In this document: in pieces, positions 13,277 to 21,369 of the stretch
Layout: each line of letters begins with the position of its first letter
How positions within the stretch are numbered: the stretch's first letter is position 1
NCBI GenBank assembly: GCA_016872835.1
Contig: VGYX01000003.1
Coordinates: forward strand, 1 to 64,000
Reading direction: 5' to 3'
DNA: 64,000 nucleotides
Source: Planctomycetota bacterium
GTDB lineage: Bacteria; Planctomycetota; Phycisphaerae; Phycisphaerales; SM1A02
The notes under the pieces: generated by a model
Databases searched by the model: none
Seen by the model: the letters and a program-made list of their open reading frames with translations, nothing else
Told to the model about the DNA's origin: nothing
Program-made: the position numbers and the translations under genes

Positions 13277-15583
13277 TCATGGGCAGGGGCCGAAGTCGAG
13301 CAGCATGAGCGACACGTCGGAGGGGCCGGTGACGCCGTCACCGTCCACGTCACTCCGGCAACCCGAGCAGGAGCCAAAGTCCAGCAGCACGACGGAGACG
13401 TCGGATGGACCCACGGCACCGTCGTCGTCCAGGTCATTCGGGCAGAGATTCACGGCGGTGCAGATTGTGGTGAGCGTGCCCGTGCCGGCTCCGGAGCCCG
13501 GACTGCCGATGCGGATGTAGTAGGTGCCGCCCTCGACGGCCTCCCATTCGACGGTGCTTGTGCCGCCGCTGCAGCCGACGCCCGTGTCGTTGCATGCCAG
13601 CACGGCGGTGCTCGCGCCGGGGCAGGATGCGCCGTCATAGATGGCAATGTTGGTGTCGAAGCCAGCGGTGCCACAGGTGCTGGCCGAGGCCACCCCGCTG
13701 CAGGAAGCCGTGTACTTGAACCACACATCTTTGTTGATCGCGGTGCCGCCGCCATCGTTGCACGAGGCCGGGATCGCGTTGGCCGAGTTGGTGGCGCCGA
13801 ACGTGTTGAAGGAGGACGTCGCGTCACCGATGGCCGTGGCGCCCGAGCACTCGTTGTTTGCGGGGGCGGGCGTGGTCACGCTGAAGTTCAGCGAGTAGGT
13901 GTTGCGCGTGTCGGTGGAGAGAGAGACCTCCAGGATCAGCTGGCTGCTGGAGGTGGTGTTCACATAGTTGAACGCCTCGTTGTTCACGTTGGCGTTGCGA
14001 TCAAGCAGCAGCGTGCCACCGCAGGCGTCGTAGAGCTTGAAGTCCACGTCGCCCTGCGCGTGCGTGTAGGTGCTCGACAGCGTGAGCGTGGCGGTGGGAG
14101 GCACCATGAGGGCATAGAAGTCCTTGTCCACACGCTTCACGATCAGGCCGGTATAGTTGCCGGGCGCCAGCGGTCGTGCCGTGGCGCAGGTGTCGTTGTT
14201 GTCCTGCGCGTCGTCGGTGCCGGCCGCCATGAAGGTGCTGAAGCCTCCCGTGGTGAGCGCCAGGTCCCAGCGGCCGTACCAGGCCGAGCCCAGATTGGTG
14301 CACGTCGCGCTGGTCGATCCGCACGACAGGATGCCATAGAGCTTCTGGTCACTGTTCTTGTAGATGCCGGAGCCGCTGCTTCCGCCCTCGATGGTGCCCT
14401 GCGTCCAGTTGATGCGCGAGGCGCCGGCGACCACCGCGCCGGTGTTGCAACTCGTGGTCGTGCTGCTCTTGGGGCCGAAGTGGATGTCCTGCTCGACACC
14501 GTTGGGATGGCTGATGCCGGTGGAGGCCGTGCTGTTGGCCACATTCACTGTGTCCCAGCCGACCCAGAAGACCGTGCTTGGCAGCGTGTTGCGCAACATG
14601 AGCAGGGTGCAGTCAGCGCCCGCGTAGGTGCCGATGAAATCGGAGCCACCCGACACGGTGGTGCCGGCGCTCACGCTTCCATTGCAGGTGTTCGCGCGGT
14701 TGAAGAACTTCACCACGAGGCTGTTGGCCTCGGCGGTGGTGCTGATGCAGTGGTTGGCCGTGGAGAAGTAGGGCGTCTCGTCGGCGGCGGTGGTGGCCAT
14801 GAGCTGGCCGGTGCACACGTAGCTCGCACCGCCGCTGGTGAACGTCATCTGGCCCACGCCGTTGGAGACGTTCGCCCACTGGCTGTAGCACGAGGGATCG
14901 ATCACGCAGCCGGAGGCCTCCTGATGGATGGCCTGATCGAGCTCTTCCTGCGTGGGGAAGACCTGCTTGTAGCCGTGCGCATACTCAAGGCCCGTGAAGG
15001 GCAGGGCGTTCACCTCGACGCCGTTGGGCACGAACCACTCAAGATGGCTCACCTCGCCCGAGGCGAAGGTGCCCCACAGCTCGCCGTTGTCGAAGGGGCC
15101 GGTGCCCGTGATCGGGCCGACCATGCTGTCCGCGATGCCTGGCGTGTTCAGGTGGATCTCCTGACCTTCGCCGAGATTCAGTCCGGAGAGGTGGAGTCGA
15201 TTGTTCAGGCTTCCGAGGCCACGGACCTCCAGGCGCCACACGCGGCCGCCCTCGACGGGCAGCCAGTCACCGTCGGAGAGACGCACCTGCACCGAGCGCT
15301 GGATCGAGAAGCGAAGCGGGCGACTGTCCTGCTCCAGCTCCTCCTCCATGCGAAGCCCTTCCACATCGACGGGGCCGAGCACCCACTGCGGTGCGGCGAT
15401 CATGCTCAAGCCGGCGCGCTCGGCGTAATTCAGGACGAGCTCCTCCTCCAGCGGGACCGCCACGACCAGCGGGCCGTGACCTTCCGCGGACAGGATGCCA
15501 CCCGGTGGCGCGGCGAAAGCGGGTGCGATCAGCGCGAGCGAGGTGACAAGGGTGGTGCAACCGGATGTGGTCAGTCGGCGCAT
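13277..15583 (-). CDS. Secreted lysyl-endopeptidase-like protease with two C-terminal beta domains and dockerin-like tail
   Basis: 768 residues. Signal peptide (MRRLTTSGCTTLVTSLALIA), then a serine-protease domain with histidine in STANHCIS (about 278), aspartate in ADCTLLMLR (about 324) and serine in EGGSSGSGI (about 402). Two different beta-sandwich pre-peptidase C-terminal-like domains follow, one starting DDAQDNNDTCATA, the other NNECSGATAIGD and ending in YYIRIGSPG. Two calcium-loop repeats (DLDDDGAVGPSD and DVDGDGVTGPSD) end the protein. The ATG at 15583 has AGGAG 6 bases away. It shares its whole layout with the protease at 8880-10724 but has one more C-terminal domain, so one may derive from the other by duplication. 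Confidence 0.91.
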   Translation of the reverse strand: MRRLTTSGCTTLVTSLALIAPAFAAPPGGILSAEGHGPLVVAVPLEEELVLNYAERAGLSMIAAPQWVLGPVDVEGLRMEEELEQDSRPLRFSIQRSVQVRLSDGDWLPVEGGRVWRLEVRGLGSLNNRLHLSGLNLGEGQEIHLNTPGIADSMVGPITGTGPFDNGELWGTFASGEVSHLEWFVPNGVEVNALPFTGLEYAHGYKQVFPTQEELDQAIHQEASGCVIDPSCYSQWANVSNGVGQMTFTSGGASYVCTGQLMATTAADETPYFSTANHCISTTAEANSLVVKFFNRANTCNGSVSAGTTVSGGSDFIGTYAGADCTLLMLRNTLPSTVFWVGWDTVNVANSTASTGISHPNGVEQDIHFGPKSSTTTSCNTGAVVAGASRINWTQGTIEGGSSGSGIYKNSDQKLYGILSCGSTSATCTNLGSAWYGRWDLALTTGGFSTFMAAGTDDAQDNNDTCATARPLAPGNYTGLIVKRVDKDFYALMVPPTATLTLSSTYTHAQGDVDFKLYDACGGTLLLDRNANVNNEAFNYVNTTSSSQLILEVSLSTDTRNTYSLNFSVTTPAPANNECSGATAIGDATSSFNTFGATNSANAIPASCNDGGGTAINKDVWFKYTASCSGVASASTCGTAGFDTNIAIYDGASCPGASTAVLACNDTGVGCSGGTSTVEWEAVEGGTYYIRIGSPGSGAGTGTLTTICTAVNLCPNDLDDDGAVGPSDVSVVLLDFGSCSGCRSDVDGDGVTGPSDVSLMLLDFGPCP

Positions 15584-15743
15584 GCGAGCTCCTGTCTTGG
15601 GTTCGTGGATTCCCCGGTAACGTAAAATAGACGAGTTTTTGAACTGGAAAAGGGCTTTTCCCATGGAATCGGTTGATTCCGGAGCAGGTGGTCGTATGGC
15701 AGGAACACGGCGGCCCGGGACGGTCCATAAGTAGTCTTTGTGA

Positions 15744-16868
15744 ATGGCTAAGGCCTACACCCCCGGTCTGAAGGTTTCCGACCATGCCTTGCACCGGGCG
15801 CGAAGGGTCCTGCCGACGCCCGGCGAGGTGCGGGTGGCGCCTGGGGATCGGGTTCAGGGCTCGACGGTGGTGGCCGAAACTTTCCTGGAAGGCGATGTGA
15901 CCCCCATGAAGGTGGCGAATCTGCTGGCGTGTCAGCCCAAGGACCTGCCAGGGCTCATGCTGAAGAGGGTCGGCGAGGCCGTGGCCAAGGATGAGGTGTT
16001 GGCACGCAGCAAGGGCGTGTTCGGCCTGATGAAGACCGAAGTGAAGGCGAGCGCGGCGGGCACGGTGGAGAGCGTGAGCGACTCAAGTGGTCTGGTGCTG
16101 ATCCGCGGGCCGAGGCAGCCAGTGCAGGTGCTGGCGCACGTACCCGGACGGGTGGTTCAGGTGCTGGCGAGCGAGGGCGCGGTGATCGAGACCGACGCGG
16201 CGCTGGTGCAGGGCATCTTCGGCGTGGGTGGCGAGGTACGCGGGCCCATCGCGCTTGCCTGTCGAGCGCCGGAGGAGGAACTGCACGAGGACCTGATCAA
16301 GCCCGAAATGAAGGGTTGCGTGATCGTGGGTGGTGCGCGCATGACCGCCACGGCGATCGCGCGCGCGAAGGCGGTCGGCGCGGCAGCGGTGGTGAGCGGC
16401 GGCATCGACGACGCGGACCTGCGCGACTTCCTTGGGCATGATCTTGGCGTGGCGATCACCGGCAGCGAGAGGTGTGGCCTCACGCTGATCATCACCGAGG
16501 GATTCGGCGAGATCGCGATGGCACGGCGCACCTTCGCGCTGCTGGCGGGACATCAGGGCCGCGAGGCGTGCGTGAACGGCGCCACGCAGATCCGCGCCGG
16601 CGTGATGCGCCCCGAGATCGTGGTGCCCATCGAGCATGCGCCCGCGAAGGTGGATCGTGGCGGCGCCGTCGACGGCGAACTTTCCATCGGCGCGCCGGTT
16701 CGCATCATCCGTGATCCGCACTTCGGGCTGATCGGCAAGGTCGCAGGGTTACCGGAGCGGCCCGCTCTGCTTGACAGCGGCAGCAAGGCGCGCGTGCTGG
16801 AGGTGTGCTTGGAGCAAGGCGGCACGGTGACGGTGCCTCGTGCCAACGTCGAGCGCATCGAGGGCTGA
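15744..16868 (+). CDS. Sandwich-hybrid/KOW-like protein heading an unknown membrane operon
   Basis: 374 residues, no signal peptide or membrane helix. Residues about 60-165 contain repeated lipoyl/RnfC-like sandwich motifs, including FGLMKTEVKASAAGTVESV (95-111). That segment resembles a biotinyl site, but attachment is not claimed. The middle (about 190-290) looks like a Rossmann-type domain: GCVIVGGARMTATAIARAK, then VVSGGIDD and LTLIITEGFGE. The C terminus (about 315-372) is SH3/KOW-like: VRIIRDPHFGLIGKVAGLP. A TAGTCT hexamer lies 6 bases before the ATG, suggesting a leaderless mRNA. The next gene follows after 19 bases. I do not know its function; it may be the cytoplasmic part of the complex encoded downstream. 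Confidence 0.85.
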   Translation: MAKAYTPGLKVSDHALHRARRVLPTPGEVRVAPGDRVQGSTVVAETFLEGDVTPMKVANLLACQPKDLPGLMLKRVGEAVAKDEVLARSKGVFGLMKTEVKASAAGTVESVSDSSGLVLIRGPRQPVQVLAHVPGRVVQVLASEGAVIETDAALVQGIFGVGGEVRGPIALACRAPEEELHEDLIKPEMKGCVIVGGARMTATAIARAKAVGAAAVVSGGIDDADLRDFLGHDLGVAITGSERCGLTLIITEGFGEIAMARRTFALLAGHQGREACVNGATQIRAGVMRPEIVVPIEHAPAKVDRGGAVDGELSIGAPVRIIRDPHFGLIGKVAGLPERPALLDSGSKARVLEVCLEQGGTVTVPRANVERIEG

Positions 16869-16887
16869 GTCGCGTTACATTTCACGC

Positions 16888-17829
16888 ATGGATCGCGCTC
16901 ACCATCGACTCCGGTCGCCGTGGCCGTGGGCGGCGATCCTGGTCGGATGCGTGATTGGATGGGGGCAAGGGCAGCGAGCACACGCGGATGCGGGTGTCGT
17001 TGCGGGCACGGCCGCCGCTGAATCGATCCTGAATGAGCATCGACTTCCGCTGGCCGCGTGGATCGTGGGAATCGGCGCGGCCACCACGATCTTCGTGTGG
17101 CGCGCGCGCCGCGGAAGGCCGCCGACCATCCGTCGCATCGCGGCGCTTGAGGCGGTTGACGAGGCGATCGGGCGCGCCACCGAGATGGGTCGTCCGGTGC
17201 TGTTCATTCCGGGCATCCAGGACATGGACAACATCCAGACAGTGGCCGGCGTGACCATGCTGGGTCGCGTGGCGAAGACCGCGGCGGAGTACGACGCGGC
17301 GGTCGAGGCGCCGGTGTGTCGCTCGCTGGTGATGGAGGCCGCGCGTGAGGCGGTGCAGGCGAGCTGTCTGGCCGCGGGACGTGCCGACGCGTACCAGCCG
17401 GACCGTATCCACTATGTCACCGACGAGCAGTTCGGCTACGTGGCCTATGTCGGCGGCAAGATGATGCGCGAGAAGCCTGCGGCCTGCTTCTACATGGGGT
17501 GCTTCTTCGCCGAGAGCCTGATCTTCAGCGAGAACGGCAACTCGATCGGGGCGATCCAGATCGCCGGCACCGCCGAAAGCAGTCAGCTGCCATTTTTCGT
17601 GGCGGCCTGCGACTACACGCTGATCGGCGAGGAGTTCTTCGCGGCAAGCGCATACCTGAGCGGCGAGCCTGACCAACTTGGCACGCTGCAGGCGCAGGAT
17701 TCGGGCAAGGTCGCGGTGATGAGTTTCATCGTGATCGGTGCCGTGGTCGCGACGGCGGGCGTGCTGATGCCCTCGGCGGCGTGGCTGGGCGAGCTGGGCG
17801 CGCTGCTGCGCAAGGCGATGGGTGGCTGA
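16888..17829 (+). CDS. Membrane protein of unknown function (DUF6754-like)
   Basis: 313 residues. An N-terminal signal/anchor helix (PWAAILVGCVIGWG), a second helix (LAAWIVGIGAATTIFVW, about 52-70), a soluble core and a C-terminal helix (MSFIVIGAVVATAGVLM). The core holds EAIGRATEMGRPVLFIPG, then VEAPVCRSLVMEAAREAVQ and SIGAIQIAGTAESSQLPFF, reminiscent of the uncharacterised DUF6754 family; this is from memory and unchecked. TACATT is 6 bases before the ATG, so an internal promoter is possible. It is second of five genes and is followed after 3 bases by another membrane protein. Confidence 0.85.
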   Translation: MDRAHHRLRSPWPWAAILVGCVIGWGQGQRAHADAGVVAGTAAAESILNEHRLPLAAWIVGIGAATTIFVWRARRGRPPTIRRIAALEAVDEAIGRATEMGRPVLFIPGIQDMDNIQTVAGVTMLGRVAKTAAEYDAAVEAPVCRSLVMEAAREAVQASCLAAGRADAYQPDRIHYVTDEQFGYVAYVGGKMMREKPAACFYMGCFFAESLIFSENGNSIGAIQIAGTAESSQLPFFVAACDYTLIGEEFFAASAYLSGEPDQLGTLQAQDSGKVAVMSFIVIGAVVATAGVLMPSAAWLGELGALLRKAMGG

Positions 17830-17832
17830 GCG

Positions 17833-18537
17833 ATGGTGCTGACCCGGCTCATTCCGCTCTGGATCGCGATCGTCTCGGGCGTGGCGATCCTGGTGAGCGC
17901 GTTCATCCGGCCGATGGAGAGCTGGGGAGAGAACTTCACCGACACGTTCAACGTGATCGCGGCCATCGCGAGCGTGCTTGGCGCGGGCAGCCTGCTGAAG
18001 GCGAACCTGGCGAAGGTGAGTCGTCGTGACGCAGGCTGGGGCTTCGCGCTGGTGGTGCTGGGCACGTTCCTGATCACGCTGGTGGTGGGTCTGGGCAAGA
18101 TCGGCGTGCACCCAAGCCACGACTTCCCGCAGGCGGACTTCGGAGGCAAGCAGGAGAGCGCCGACACGCCGTTCGGGTGGATCTACGAGTTCGCGATGGT
18201 GCCCTTGACGAGCACCATGTTCGCGTTGCTGGCGTTCTATGTGGCCAGCGCGGCGTTCCGCGCCTTCCGTGCGAAGAACCTCGAGGCCAGCCTGCTGCTC
18301 GGCACGGCGTTCGTGATCCTGCTGGGCCGCACCTTCGCGGGCGTGGTGCTGACTGGCTGGCTGCCTGACTGGGCGAGCGGACTTCGACTGGAGAACCTGA
18401 GCGTCTACGTGATGCAGGTCTTCAACACGGCGGGCAACCGCGCGATCATCATCGGCATCGCGCTGGGCGTGGCGGCCACAAGCCTGCGCATCCTGTTGGG
18501 TGTGGACCGCAGCTGGCTGGGAGGTGGCGAGCGATGA
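17833..18537 (+). CDS. Six-helix membrane protein, unknown operon
   Basis: 234 residues with about six hydrophobic helices, from LTRLIPLWIAIVSGVAILVS to a last one near GNRAIIIGIALGVAATSLRI. A short non-cytoplasmic loop rich in His/Asp (HPSHDFPQADFGG) lies after helix 3. AFRAFRAKNLEASLLLGTAFVILLGR is a conserved-looking, positively charged loop plus helix. The ATG is 3 bases after the previous stop, and its own stop overlaps the next ATG (ATGA), so translation is probably coupled. No known transporter motif is visible. Confidence 0.85.
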   Translation: MVLTRLIPLWIAIVSGVAILVSAFIRPMESWGENFTDTFNVIAAIASVLGAGSLLKANLAKVSRRDAGWGFALVVLGTFLITLVVGLGKIGVHPSHDFPQADFGGKQESADTPFGWIYEFAMVPLTSTMFALLAFYVASAAFRAFRAKNLEASLLLGTAFVILLGRTFAGVVLTGWLPDWASGLRLENLSVYVMQVFNTAGNRAIIIGIALGVAATSLRILLGVDRSWLGGGER

Positions 18538-19409
18538 GCCTGCTTGCCCGACTGCAGTCGCTGGATCGACGCTGGATCTTCCTGCTCATGGCGATCGCCG
18601 TGGCGGGGCCGATCCTGTGGAGCGGACTGACGGGCAAGACGCCACCCGAGCAACCCACCGACGCGGCGCGTCGCGTGCTGAAGGTGATCGACGACCTGCC
18701 TGAAGGAAGTCGCGTGCTCTTCGCGTTCGACTACGACCCGGCGAGCGCGGGCGAGCTGCAGCCAATGGCGACGAGCCTGATGCGACAGTGCGCGGCGCGA
18801 AAGCTTCGCATCGTGTGCATTGCGCTGTGGCCACTCGGCGGCAACATGGCGCAGGAGACGATCGCGCACGTGATCCGCGCGGACTTCCCGAGTCTTCGCG
18901 AGGGCGTGGACTTCGTGAATCTGGGCTTTCAGGCGGGCAACGAGGGCGTGATGAAGGTGGTGCTGACGGATTTCACGAAGGCGTTCCCAAAGGACACGCG
19001 CGGTCAGGCCGCGGCGGATCTGCCGATTCTGCAGGGTGTGCGGACGGTGCGTGACTTCCCGTTGCTGGTGAACGTGAGCGCGGGCTACCCGGGCAGCAAG
19101 GAGTGGGTGCAGTACGTGGTCAGCGCGAGCGAGGGCTCGGTGAAGATGATCGCCGGCTGCACGGGCGTGCAGACCCCGCAGATGTATCCGTACTACCCCG
19201 GGCAGCTGGCCGGACTGCTGGGCGCGATCAAGGGCGCTGCGGAATACGAGAACCTGCTGAACGGCGTGATGGGTGGCGATCCTGCGCCCAAGTATCTGGA
19301 GGCGCAGCGACGCATGGCGCCGCAGTTGTTCGGACATCTGCTGCTGGTGGGCCTGATCGTGGTGGGCAACCTGATCCAGTTCATGGGTCGACGGGGGACG
19401 CGCGCATGA
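18534..19409 (+). CDS. Two-helix membrane protein with large soluble domain, unknown operon
   Basis: 291 residues. A helix at about 15-32 (IFLLMAIAVAGPILW) and another near the C terminus (LFGHLLLVGLIVVGNLIQFM) bracket a domain of about 230 residues. The domain has alternating strands and helices: SRVLFAFDYDPASAGELQP, LRIVCIALWPLGGNMAQ, DFPLLVNVSAGYPGSKEW and MIAGCTGVQTPQMYPYYPG. It looks like a flavodoxin- or Rossmann-like fold, but no binding motif can be named. Both ends overlap neighbours by ATGA, so its level should match theirs. Confidence 0.85.
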   Translation: MSLLARLQSLDRRWIFLLMAIAVAGPILWSGLTGKTPPEQPTDAARRVLKVIDDLPEGSRVLFAFDYDPASAGELQPMATSLMRQCAARKLRIVCIALWPLGGNMAQETIAHVIRADFPSLREGVDFVNLGFQAGNEGVMKVVLTDFTKAFPKDTRGQAAADLPILQGVRTVRDFPLLVNVSAGYPGSKEWVQYVVSASEGSVKMIAGCTGVQTPQMYPYYPGQLAGLLGAIKGAAEYENLLNGVMGGDPAPKYLEAQRRMAPQLFGHLLLVGLIVVGNLIQFMGRRGTRA

Positions 19410-20419
19410 ATCGCCAGCGTCTGACATGGATCGTCATCGGCGTGGTGTTCGCCGGGCTGCTTGTGGTGCGTGGCATGACAGGGCAGGGACTTGGGCGCGT
19501 GTATGTACAGCACGAGGACGTGGCGTACGCGAAGGTCGAGACGAAGAGCGCGCAGGGCGCCCCGACGGTGGCGTGGAAGCGTGTCGCTGAGGGTGGTGTT
19601 GCGGACGTGCGCTGGCAGGAGTGGAGTGCCGTGCCGCCGAAGGCGTGGTTCGAGGCGCAGGCGAAGGATCCGCGGCAGAGCGCGATCACGCTCTCGTGGC
19701 CGCGTACGATCGGCCTGTGGCTTGCGGCGTTCTTCACGCTGGCCATCTTCAGCTTCCTGTGGGCCGACAACGTTTTCTACAAGTTCGCCGAGGCCACGGT
19801 GGTCGGCGTGAGTGCCGCGTACTGGATGGTGATCGGCTTCTGGGACACGCTGGTACCCAAGCTGTTCGCCGCGCTGGTGCCGGCCGTGGTGCAGGCCCAT
19901 GTGCAGCCCTCGTTGAGGCCCGTCGACGATGTGCAGTGGTGGAGCATGGCGCTGGCGCTCGTGCTGGGGGGCATGATGCTGTGGCGACTTGCGCCGCGCG
20001 GTGGCTGGATCGGTGCCTGGCCGCTGGCGTTCATCGTGGGCGTGACGGCGGGCCTGAAGATCGTGAGTCATGTCGAGAGCGACCTGATGGCGCAGGGGCT
20101 GGCGACGATGGAGTCGGTCGTGGCGGTGGTGCCTGGTGCCGACGGCGCCACCGACGTGGGCGCGAGCGTCTGGGGCACGCTGGCGAACCTGTTGGTGGTG
20201 GTGGGTGTGCTGAGCGCACTCACGTACTTCCTGTTCAGCGTGGAGCACAAGGGTCTGGTGGGCGGCACCGCGCGCGTGGGCGTGTGGTACCTCATGATCA
20301 CGTTCGGTGCGGCGTTCGGTTTCACGGTCATGGGGCGCATCGCGCTGCTGGCGGCGCGCTTCGAGTTCCTGTTCGACGACTGGCTCTGGCTGATCGATCC
20401 GAATCACCTGCGCGCGTGA
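19406..20419 (+). CDS. Polytopic membrane protein ending the unknown five-gene operon
   Basis: 337 residues. One N-terminal helix (LTWIVIGVVFAGLLVVRGM), a soluble stretch of about 70 residues with YVQHEDVAYAKVETK, and then about seven helices, from IGLWLAAFFTLAIFSFLWAD to GVWYLMITFGAAFGFTVMGR. The tail RFEFLFDDWLWLIDPNHL is aromatic and acidic. It starts in an ATGA overlap with the preceding gene. The N-terminal part could contact the soluble domain of the previous protein. No homology can be named with confidence. Confidence 0.85.
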   Translation: MNRQRLTWIVIGVVFAGLLVVRGMTGQGLGRVYVQHEDVAYAKVETKSAQGAPTVAWKRVAEGGVADVRWQEWSAVPPKAWFEAQAKDPRQSAITLSWPRTIGLWLAAFFTLAIFSFLWADNVFYKFAEATVVGVSAAYWMVIGFWDTLVPKLFAALVPAVVQAHVQPSLRPVDDVQWWSMALALVLGGMMLWRLAPRGGWIGAWPLAFIVGVTAGLKIVSHVESDLMAQGLATMESVVAVVPGADGATDVGASVWGTLANLLVVVGVLSALTYFLFSVEHKGLVGGTARVGVWYLMITFGAAFGFTVMGRIALLAARFEFLFDDWLWLIDPNHLRA

Positions 20420-20565: not shown

Positions 20566-21369
20566 ATGCGTCGATCGAATCGTGGCACGGCCGCGGCCCT
20601 GGCGGGCGCGGCGAGTCTGTGGCTCTGCGCGTGCAGCGCGCGGGCGGACGTGGTGGCGAACTGGAACTTCAATGGATTGTCGGGTGCGGTGCCGACGGCC
20701 CTTGGCGCGGATCAGGGCACGGGCTCCCTGAGCCTGCTGGAATTCACCGGTGGCTTGAGTGCGCTGGCGGGCACTGATCTATATGCATGGGGCGGCGATG
20801 TCGCGGGCATGGGACTGGTGGTGACCGGATCGGGCCAGAACGGGCGCGCGGCGGTACTCGAGGTGCGGACCGAGGGGCTGGTAGACCTTGTGTTCGGCGT
20901 GGCAGCGAGACGAAGCGGCAGCGGTTTCGCCATGACCTCGGTGCAGGTCTGGGACGGAATCGGGTGGCGCATGGCCGGATCGATCGACGCCAGCACGACG
21001 CAGTGGCAGGTGCACACGGTGGATCTTTCGGCGTTCGACTTCCTGGAGCAGACTGCGAGCGCGCGTGTGCGCGTGGTGGTGGATGGCGCCACCAGCAGCA
21101 GCGGCAACATCCGTCTCGACAATCTGCGGCTGTCGGCGACGCCTGTGCCTGGGCCTGGACCGGTGGCTGCGATCGGGGCGGTGGCGGCTTCGGTCACCCG
21201 TCGGCGAGGTGGACGCAAGAGTGCAGTGAAGGTCGAGTGTGTGAAGCCGGTTTCGGCCGAGACGAAGAGCGGCGACGATCAGCTGCCCACGCCGCCATCC
21301 TCGGTGCCCGGTTCCGACGCGTGCGAGCGCACATCGGCGCGCGGACGCTCCGGGCGAACCTCGGGCTGA
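20566..21369 (+). CDS. Secreted PEP-CTERM-like protein with an unusual run-on C terminus
   Basis: 267 residues. A strong AGGAGG site precedes the ATG. A signal peptide (RGTAAALAGAASLWLCAC) is followed by a beta-sandwich-like domain starting ADVVANWNFNGL. Near residue 195 comes VPGPGPVAAIGAVAASVTRRRGGRK, a PEP-CTERM-like anchor (VPxPG, hydrophobic run, arginines) where such proteins normally end. Here the frame runs on for about 50 low-complexity residues and overlaps the convergent pdxA gene by 91 bases. A TGA lies one frame off at 21226-21228, so a one-base indel after the arginine cluster could explain the tail. Function unknown. Confidence 0.8.
   Translation: MRRSNRGTAAALAGAASLWLCACSARADVVANWNFNGLSGAVPTALGADQGTGSLSLLEFTGGLSALAGTDLYAWGGDVAGMGLVVTGSGQNGRAAVLEVRTEGLVDLVFGVAARRSGSGFAMTSVQVWDGIGWRMAGSIDASTTQWQVHTVDLSAFDFLEQTASARVRVVVDGATSSSGNIRLDNLRLSATPVPGPGPVAAIGAVAASVTRRRGGRKSAVKVECVKPVSAETKSGDDQLPTPPSSVPGSDACERTSARGRSGRTSG

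Follow-up and report, generated by a model that had tools for sequence, protein, structure and literature searches.

A conserved eight-gene set with DUF6754 and a MutL-type ATPase: a putative and apparently undescribed membrane machine of bacteria

The stretch of DNA analysed here, hereafter the window, consists of the first 64,000 nucleotides of contig VGYX01000003.1 (assembly GCA_016872835.1) from a Planctomycetota bacterium. It carries five tightly packed genes, P1 to P5 (15744-20419, + strand), that encode one soluble protein and four membrane proteins. One of the latter, P2, is a member of the Pfam family DUF6754 (PF20539), a domain of unknown function. In relatives, these genes belong to a conserved set of up to eight genes that also encodes an ATPase of the MutL type and two proteins named here c6 and c7. 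The products of this set would form one physical complex, and we tentatively favour the reading that it is an ATP-driven complex that transports or remodels a substrate of the cell envelope. This DUF6754/MutL machine is apparently undescribed: no paper was found on DUF6754, PF20539, PF13941 (the MutL family) or the set in a literature search outside which most subscription papers and all bioRxiv preprints lie, so that a prior description is possible. GlmL, a protein with the same ATPase domain, is named in 15 papers, two of which (PMC4682846 and PMC11633334) may be relevant judging from their titles.

Conservation of the P1-P5 genes and of their order

The preliminary description of the window, made from the sequence alone, had proposed a five-gene operon with a DUF6754-like protein, a six-helix protein, a protein with a soluble domain between two helices and a multi-helix last protein. 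The listing of open reading frames (ORFs) gives the same operon with the same spacings (19, 3, -4 and -4 bases), and hydropathy predicts 0, 2, 6, 2 and 5 helices for P1 to P5, respectively (for P5, five over the threshold). P2 matches DUF6754 with an E-value of 1.7e-111 (371.9 bits for a gathering cut-off of 27 bits). P1, P3, P4 and P5 have nothing over the cut-off in Pfam or NCBIfam. The five genes are listed in Table 1.

Table 1. Genes P1 to P5 of the window
Gene	Position	Strand	Product	Source
P1	15744..16868	+	374 amino acids (aa), soluble	ORF listing and translation
P2 (DUF6754, PF20539)	16888..17829	+	313 aa	ORF listing and Pfam
P3	17833..18537	+	234 aa, six predicted transmembrane (TM) helices	ORF listing and hydropathy
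P4	18534..19409	+	291 aa, TM1 - alpha/beta domain - TM2	ORF listing and structure model
P5	19406..20419	+	337 aa, multi-helix membrane protein	ORF listing and hydropathy

Among 40 stretches from other genomes of the phylum, analysed with tblastn (identities of about 25-73%), 31 carry all five genes in the order of the window. Most of the remaining nine have no P1 nearby; in L086, P1 follows P5, L059 carries P1 only, and L075 and L077 carry P1 and DUF6754 only. A wider scan using one genome per species found at least 577 stretches encoding relatives of DUF6754, 80 of which were kept. By their record titles, these come from, among others, Planctomycetota, Candidatus Binatia, Bdellovibrionales, Armatimonadota, Bacillota, Symbiobacterium, Nitrospira, WOR-3, Gemmatimonadota, Latescibacteria, Zixibacteriota, Elusimicrobia and one metagenome-assembled genome (MAG) of a Methanomethylicota archaeon; DUF6754 is found in none of 14 named control genomes.

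Of 122 stretches searched with profiles, 120 contain DUF6754, with 136 copies in all. In 112 of the 114 copies that have at least 4.5 kb downstream, DUF6754 is followed by P3, P4 and P5, in this order and on the same strand (the other 22 copies had too little sequence downstream and were left out; duplicate stretches account for three of the 114, all three ordered). This order is seen in Planctomycetota, Nitrospira, Armatimonadota, Bacillota, WOR-3, Binatia, Gemmatimonadota and one archaeal MAG. The two exceptions are L075 and L077, the P4 gene of which lies elsewhere in the genome, and three genomes of the bacterium's order that lack DUF6754 have no P4 match. Because the order is so widely kept, both for P1-P5 within the phylum and for P2-P5 overall, chance is excluded as an explanation of the set, and the conserved order in Planctomycetota relatives on which the preliminary description depended is indeed found.

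DUF6754 is present two or three times in 13 of the 120 stretches (L072, L080, L081, L090, L091, L120, L121, L129, L147, L157, L158, L165 and L170), mostly as whole DUF6754-P3-P4-P5 blocks. The repeated block of L121 is inverted, and L091 has one extra DUF6754 without its own P3-P5. The multiplication of whole blocks, mostly, and not of single genes fits the fixed stoichiometry that had been suggested from the tight coupling. It also suits variants of the membrane part that share one motor; L157 and L165 have multiplied P2-P5 blocks and a single MutL in the stretch.

MutL, c6 and c7

In relatives, P1 is preceded by a conserved gene whose product, about 600 aa long, contains the MutL domain PF13941 (E 1.2e-127) and is taken here to be an ASKHA-class ATPase. 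This domain exceeds the Pfam cut-off with 426.9 bits in L080 and with 441.1 bits in the genome of the window, where it is encoded on another contig, C26. Two other small genes belong to the set: c6 encodes a protein of about 140 aa that matches no family, and c7 a protein with two helices, one homologue of which has a bacterial PH signal below the cut-off. Six stretches (L144, L148, L150, L155, L159 and L170) contain all eight gene types next to one another, in orders that vary. In the genome of the window, the set is split over two places: P1-P5 are in the window, and on C26 MutL (C26:5009-6808) is immediately preceded by c6 (E 2.6e-38) and c7, the latter within a longer ORF (E 2e-25). Only two proteins of the eight-gene set, DUF6754 and MutL, pass a curated cut-off. 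We infer that the conserved machine comprises up to eight proteins, c7, c6, MutL, P1, DUF6754, P3, P4 and P5. The undescribed, coupled membrane machine with a soluble subunit that had been proposed is therefore retained, but its extent of five genes is replaced by a unit of eight that includes MutL, c6 and c7.

The link between MutL and P1 is especially close. P1 lies within 600 bases after MutL in 53 of the 64 MutL matches with room, and some of the misses stem from over-long ORF starts. Furthermore, a single ORF encodes both MutL and P1 in one Fermentibacteraceae genome (L209, and L131, which is identical in location to L210), as well as in two Bacillota-class genomes (L205 and L268). P1 is predicted to be the cytosolic partner of the MutL-type ATPase.

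The genes also co-occur across genomes. Among 294 genomes of the phylum, DUF6754 is found in 76, MutL over the cut-off in 80 and a strong P1 match in 70 (one further weak match was dropped). DUF6754 and P1 are both present in 68 genomes, DUF6754 alone in 8, P1 alone in 2 and neither in 216; the corresponding numbers for DUF6754 and MutL are 70, 6, 10 (MutL alone) and 208. The Fisher values (7e-55 for DUF6754/P1 and 4e-49 for DUF6754/MutL) are not taken as probabilities, as the genomes are related and not independent. In 21 of 22 genomes chosen for lacking MutL beside DUF6754, MutL is encoded elsewhere in the genome (two of the 22, G359 and G360, coincide in their matches and positions with G130 and G061 from the 294). 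At E 0.001, 23 of 24 such genomes have a P1, with strong matches in 22, two of the 24 having been added for their fusions. The archaeal MAG G340 encodes P1 and MutL as well, although misassigned contigs are possible there. Correlations of pairwise distances among six families (0.68-0.95, 49 stretches) have no unrelated-gene background and are not used as evidence.

The MutL domain raises another explanation, since GlmL and Or-4 possess the same PF13941 ATPase domain: the MutL of the set could be an ordinary accessory protein of glutamate or ornithine mutase, and the membrane genes would then serve a B12-dependent fermentation of amino acids. The very significant PF13941 match agrees with this, and five set-bearing genomes of Bacillota also have a MutL beside a gene (L173-L177) that we take to be aminomutase-like, an assignment made by eye that the Or-4 match of the L173 MutL supports. 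The L173 MutL passes the Or-4 and GlmL family models of NCBIfam, whereas the MutL of the set in L080 (L080:13424-15223), a stretch from the phylum of the window, is below the cut-offs of TIGR01319 (161.9/204.05), NF040745 (230.6/475) and NF040744 (208.5/600). The GlmL models have 450-460 positions versus about 600 aa for the P1-associated MutL of the phylum. The MutL ORFs of L173-L177 (451-595 aa) have no P1 within 1.5 kb, and these Bacillota genomes carry a long MutL as well. P1 or c6 lies within 1.5 kb at 6 of 10 long MutL loci versus none of the five beside aminomutase-like genes. Length is no strict rule, as a MutL of 485 aa pairs with P1 in L198. Finally, glutamate mutase E (PF06368), the only B12 enzyme searched, is over the cut-off in none of 32 set-bearing genomes, that of the window included; one weak partial match occurs in G344. 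The reading as a glutamate-mutase accessory protein is largely refuted by the PF06368 result and the three failed cut-offs; it is set aside, and the broader mutase explanation seems very improbable.

Predicted structure and topology of the subunits

The structure model of DUF6754 (mean predicted local distance difference test, pLDDT, of 87.9, with a core above 95) and hydropathy give the same layout, a TM helix followed by an alpha/beta domain and a second TM helix. Foldseek found no match of this model under 1e-3. Using VIA-align, the four top matches are sirtuins (Z 12.3 to 11.2, 139-144 residues, 3.3-3.7 Å), the best being Sir2 (Z 12.3, 139 residues, 3.3 Å), followed by a mix of unrelated and related Rossmann-type proteins. 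The model also aligns with transhydrogenase domain III (Z 9.6, 144 residues, 3.6 Å) and the epsilon subunit of carbon monoxide dehydrogenase (CODH; Z 9.3, 137 residues, 3.2 Å), which presumably share with Sir2 a DHS-like fold. DUF6754 differs from Sir2 in that its domain is flanked by two predicted TM helices, and the Pfam search at E 1 gives it no SIR2 match. The model suggests that DUF6754 carries a Rossmann/sirtuin-like domain. This domain is probably cytosolic, because lysines and arginines are more numerous after TM1 than before it (means of 4.43 and 1.62, 84 sequences).

Ten residues of DUF6754 (E99, E209, E215, Q224, Q233, D242, T244, E248, E249 and K274) are conserved at 100% (to two digits) in 84 aligned sequences and C241 in 99%; a binding or active site is therefore suggested. 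Many homologues also have a long N-terminal part, the profile of which (54 homologues) matches solved fibronectin type III (FnIII) domains (titin, E 1.8e-22). Among 125 copies with the core motif, this N-terminal part is long in 68 and short in 39; the P2 of the window has the short form, which does not include the FnIII-bearing part.

The fold and conserved residues of DUF6754 could also belong to a membrane redox or nucleotide-binding complex, in which DUF6754 would bind NAD(P) or FAD and couple a reaction to ion movement via P3 and P5. The alignments with Sir2, transhydrogenase domain III and CODH epsilon, together with the invariant acidic, glutamine and lysine residues and C241, are in line with this explanation. 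However, Foldseek gives no support, and a shared fold alone proves no function. Moreover, no NAD-binding, flavin or Fe-S family is found for P1-P5 in Pfam at E 1, and no cysteine is conserved at 80% in the aligned homologues of P3, P4 and P5, or in those of P1 (69 rows). P1 does share a weak barrel-sandwich signal (RnfC_N, 12.6 of 25.6 bits, below the cut-off) with RnfC and NqrA, which belong to redox complexes that pump ions. RnfC/NqrA-type proteins require Fe-S cysteines; P1 differs from them by having no conserved cysteine, and no Rnf or Nqr family is found for P2-P5. A redox complex is considered quite unlikely.

The P4 model (mean pLDDT 96.0) has 1kjn (Z 9.6) and CODH epsilon (Z 9.0) as best structural matches, which suggests a Rossmann-like alpha/beta domain. 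The P4 domain is probably extracytoplasmic: charges average 3.56 after the last helix versus 2.21 before, and 2.23 before TM1 versus 1.54 after (123 sequences), a weaker bias than that of DUF6754. A trehalose transferase-like identity, proposed by the single Foldseek match under 1e-3, was not accepted (TM score 0.27, root mean square deviation 14.5). In profile searches of the PDB, P4 has only matches with E above 1, and P5 and MutL have nothing. P2 and P4 are not paralogues detectable from sequence (hhalign probability 1.9); their common structural neighbours, 1kjn and CODH epsilon, are the only hint that they might share a fold or an origin, and Z-scores of 7-8 are common in these comparisons. 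P3 has no Pfam match at E 1, and the hits of about 99% that hhalign gave between it and all other alignments, spanning 7-58 columns, were discarded as artefacts. In P5, T111, N122, E129, R311 and R318 are conserved in every aligned row.

As the alpha/beta domains of P4 and DUF6754 are predicted on opposite sides of the membrane, and as many DUF6754 homologues have an FnIII domain, a signalling complex can be envisaged in which the outer domain of P4 senses a ligand and DUF6754 relays the signal to MutL-P1. However, screening the set with Pfam revealed no domain of the kinase, cyclase or DNA-binding type, and the highly conserved residues of P3 and P5 seem to exceed what a relay would need. We regard such a sensing role as improbable.

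P1 had been described as made of sandwich-hybrid, Rossmann-like and KOW/SH3-like parts. The first and last find weak support: all its Pfam signals are below the cut-off (Biotin_lipoyl E 0.008, KOW E 0.14, RnfC_N E 0.14), and a profile of 46 homologues matches, among PDB sequences, SPT5 across the KOW part (E 0.0028) and a transcarboxylase carrier domain (E 0.012). The Rossmann-like part is not established, the best matches of this profile in that region having E-values of 0.2-0.3.

A putative ATP-driven machine of the envelope

Taken together, the following model can be drawn. P3 and P5 would be the core of the complex in the cytoplasmic membrane. DUF6754 would hold its Rossmann/sirtuin-like domain in the cytosol and, in many homologues, also an FnIII domain outside, and P4 would display its Rossmann-like domain on the outer side. 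MutL and its partner P1 would dock from the cytosol, and the use of ATP by MutL would drive a conformational change of the complex. The latter would then act on a substrate of the envelope, perhaps a peptide-like one, by transporting or remodelling it. The gene set, its order, the co-occurrence and the MutL-P1 fusions are observed, and the folds of DUF6754 and P4 and the topology are predicted. Physical association and ATP drive are inferred, and the transport function and its substrate are speculative.

The transport role, raised in the preliminary description, is suggested by the operon context in some lineages. In L138 (Gemmatimonadota), P1, DUF6754, P3, P4 and P5 are preceded by SBP_bac_5 and two permease genes and followed by genes of two oligopeptide-type ATP-binding cassette (ABC) ATPases. 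SBP_bac_5 and a permease follow P5 in L090, SBP_bac_5 is found beyond P1 in L099 and L112 (Binatia), and an oligopeptide-type ATPase follows P5 in L148 (Latescibacteria). Although Opp/Dpp oligopeptide ABC importers and FtsX-type systems adjoin the set or MutL-P1 in some lineages, the proteins of the set differ from them by having no ABC_tran or BPD_transp_1 domain (P1-P5 and the scanned MutL, c6 and c7 homologues). More generally, Pfam, NCBIfam and PDB profile searches give no match to a known complex, in line with the preliminary description, which had seen no known transporter, secretion or respiratory motif.

Neighbours were surveyed for 54 MutL-P1 pairs from 56 stretches, mostly divergent extra pairs of one Bacillota class. 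Among 43 scanned upstream neighbours outside the set, 15 match FtsX, three ABC_tran, two MFS_1 and two SBP_bac_5. Each neighbour was taken as the longest fitting ORF, many genomes are related, and the FtsX count comes mainly from one class, with no background control; this neighbourhood is a lead only.

Several observations weigh against an ATP-driven transporter. In the proteins of the set, no known transporter domain, whether of the ABC, the major facilitator superfamily (MFS) or another type, passes the cut-off, and Opp-type neighbours are found in a few stretches only. Of the upstream neighbours, 28 of 43 are not FtsX, and these include IMPDH, asparaginase II and ETF. The 39 downstream neighbours show no frequent transporter family (ABC_membrane 2, ABC_tran 2, MFS_1 1 and ACR_tran 1 among the first 25 of 31 families). 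Furthermore, the parts do not always occur together: G342 (WOR-3 MAG chromosome CP070795.1, L172) has one MutL and four P4 with no P1 found, G354 has P4 and DUF6754 with no MutL and a weak and partial P1 match, and the 10 genomes with MutL alone among the 294 have no DUF6754.

MutL-P1 might instead serve in the maturation or remodelling of membrane protein complexes, as a chaperone or clamp of the ASKHA type, P2-P5 being its dedicated membrane partner in envelope assembly or quality control, with no vectorial transport. The diversity of the membrane proteins that MutL-P1 pairs adjoin (FtsX in 15 of 43 cases upstream, also MFS and SBP_bac_5) would fit such a role, as would the function of the nearest named relatives of MutL, GlmL and Or-4, as accessory proteins. 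Most phylum genomes with the set nevertheless have one MutL and one P1 match, and the P2-P5 blocks multiplied beside a single MutL in L157 and L165 are not what a general chaperone would leave. We hold this assembly role to be rather unlikely.

In a broader version of the ATP-driven reading, which we consider unlikely, MutL and P1 would make up a portable ATP motor of the ASKHA type, with no relation to ABC ATPases, by which membrane machines are powered or gated. This motor would chiefly serve DUF6754-P3-P4-P5, and paralogous pairs of Bacillota would serve FtsX-type, MFS and peptide transporters. If true, ATP-driven membrane systems would gain a new class, and one more ATPase superfamily, that of MutL-P1, would join those that power transport. 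The retention of a single gene order in many bacterial phyla, with relatives in one archaeal MAG, makes a basic function of the set probable. The holders of the set include MAGs labelled Symbiobacterium thermophilum and Nitrospira lenta, and cultured relatives may allow tests.

Other genes around the set

In three Bacillota genomes (G345, G348 and G361; e.g. L198-L207), the number of matches in one genome reaches 8 for MutL and 13 for P1; many of them are paired, and some are pieces of one gene. Several of these MutL-P1 pairs adjoin FtsX, MFS or SBP_bac_5 genes. Clustering of flanking ORFs, which yielded mostly antisense shadow ORFs, was used only to find the Opp-type neighbours and those of the Nitrospira-type stretches. 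In the latter (L136, L123, L132, L133, L135, L151, L153 and L162), a related gene follows P5; its L136 copy (L136:12386-13648), the only one scanned, matches AmmeMemoSam_B/MEMO1.

In the window itself, a large ORF on the - strand (13277-15664), divergent to P1, encodes a secreted protease-like protein with a dockerin-like C-terminal repeat, both named by eye. Downstream of P5, an ORF on the + strand (20566-21369, cluster c9) has relatives that are found near the set in 7 of the 40 phylum stretches.

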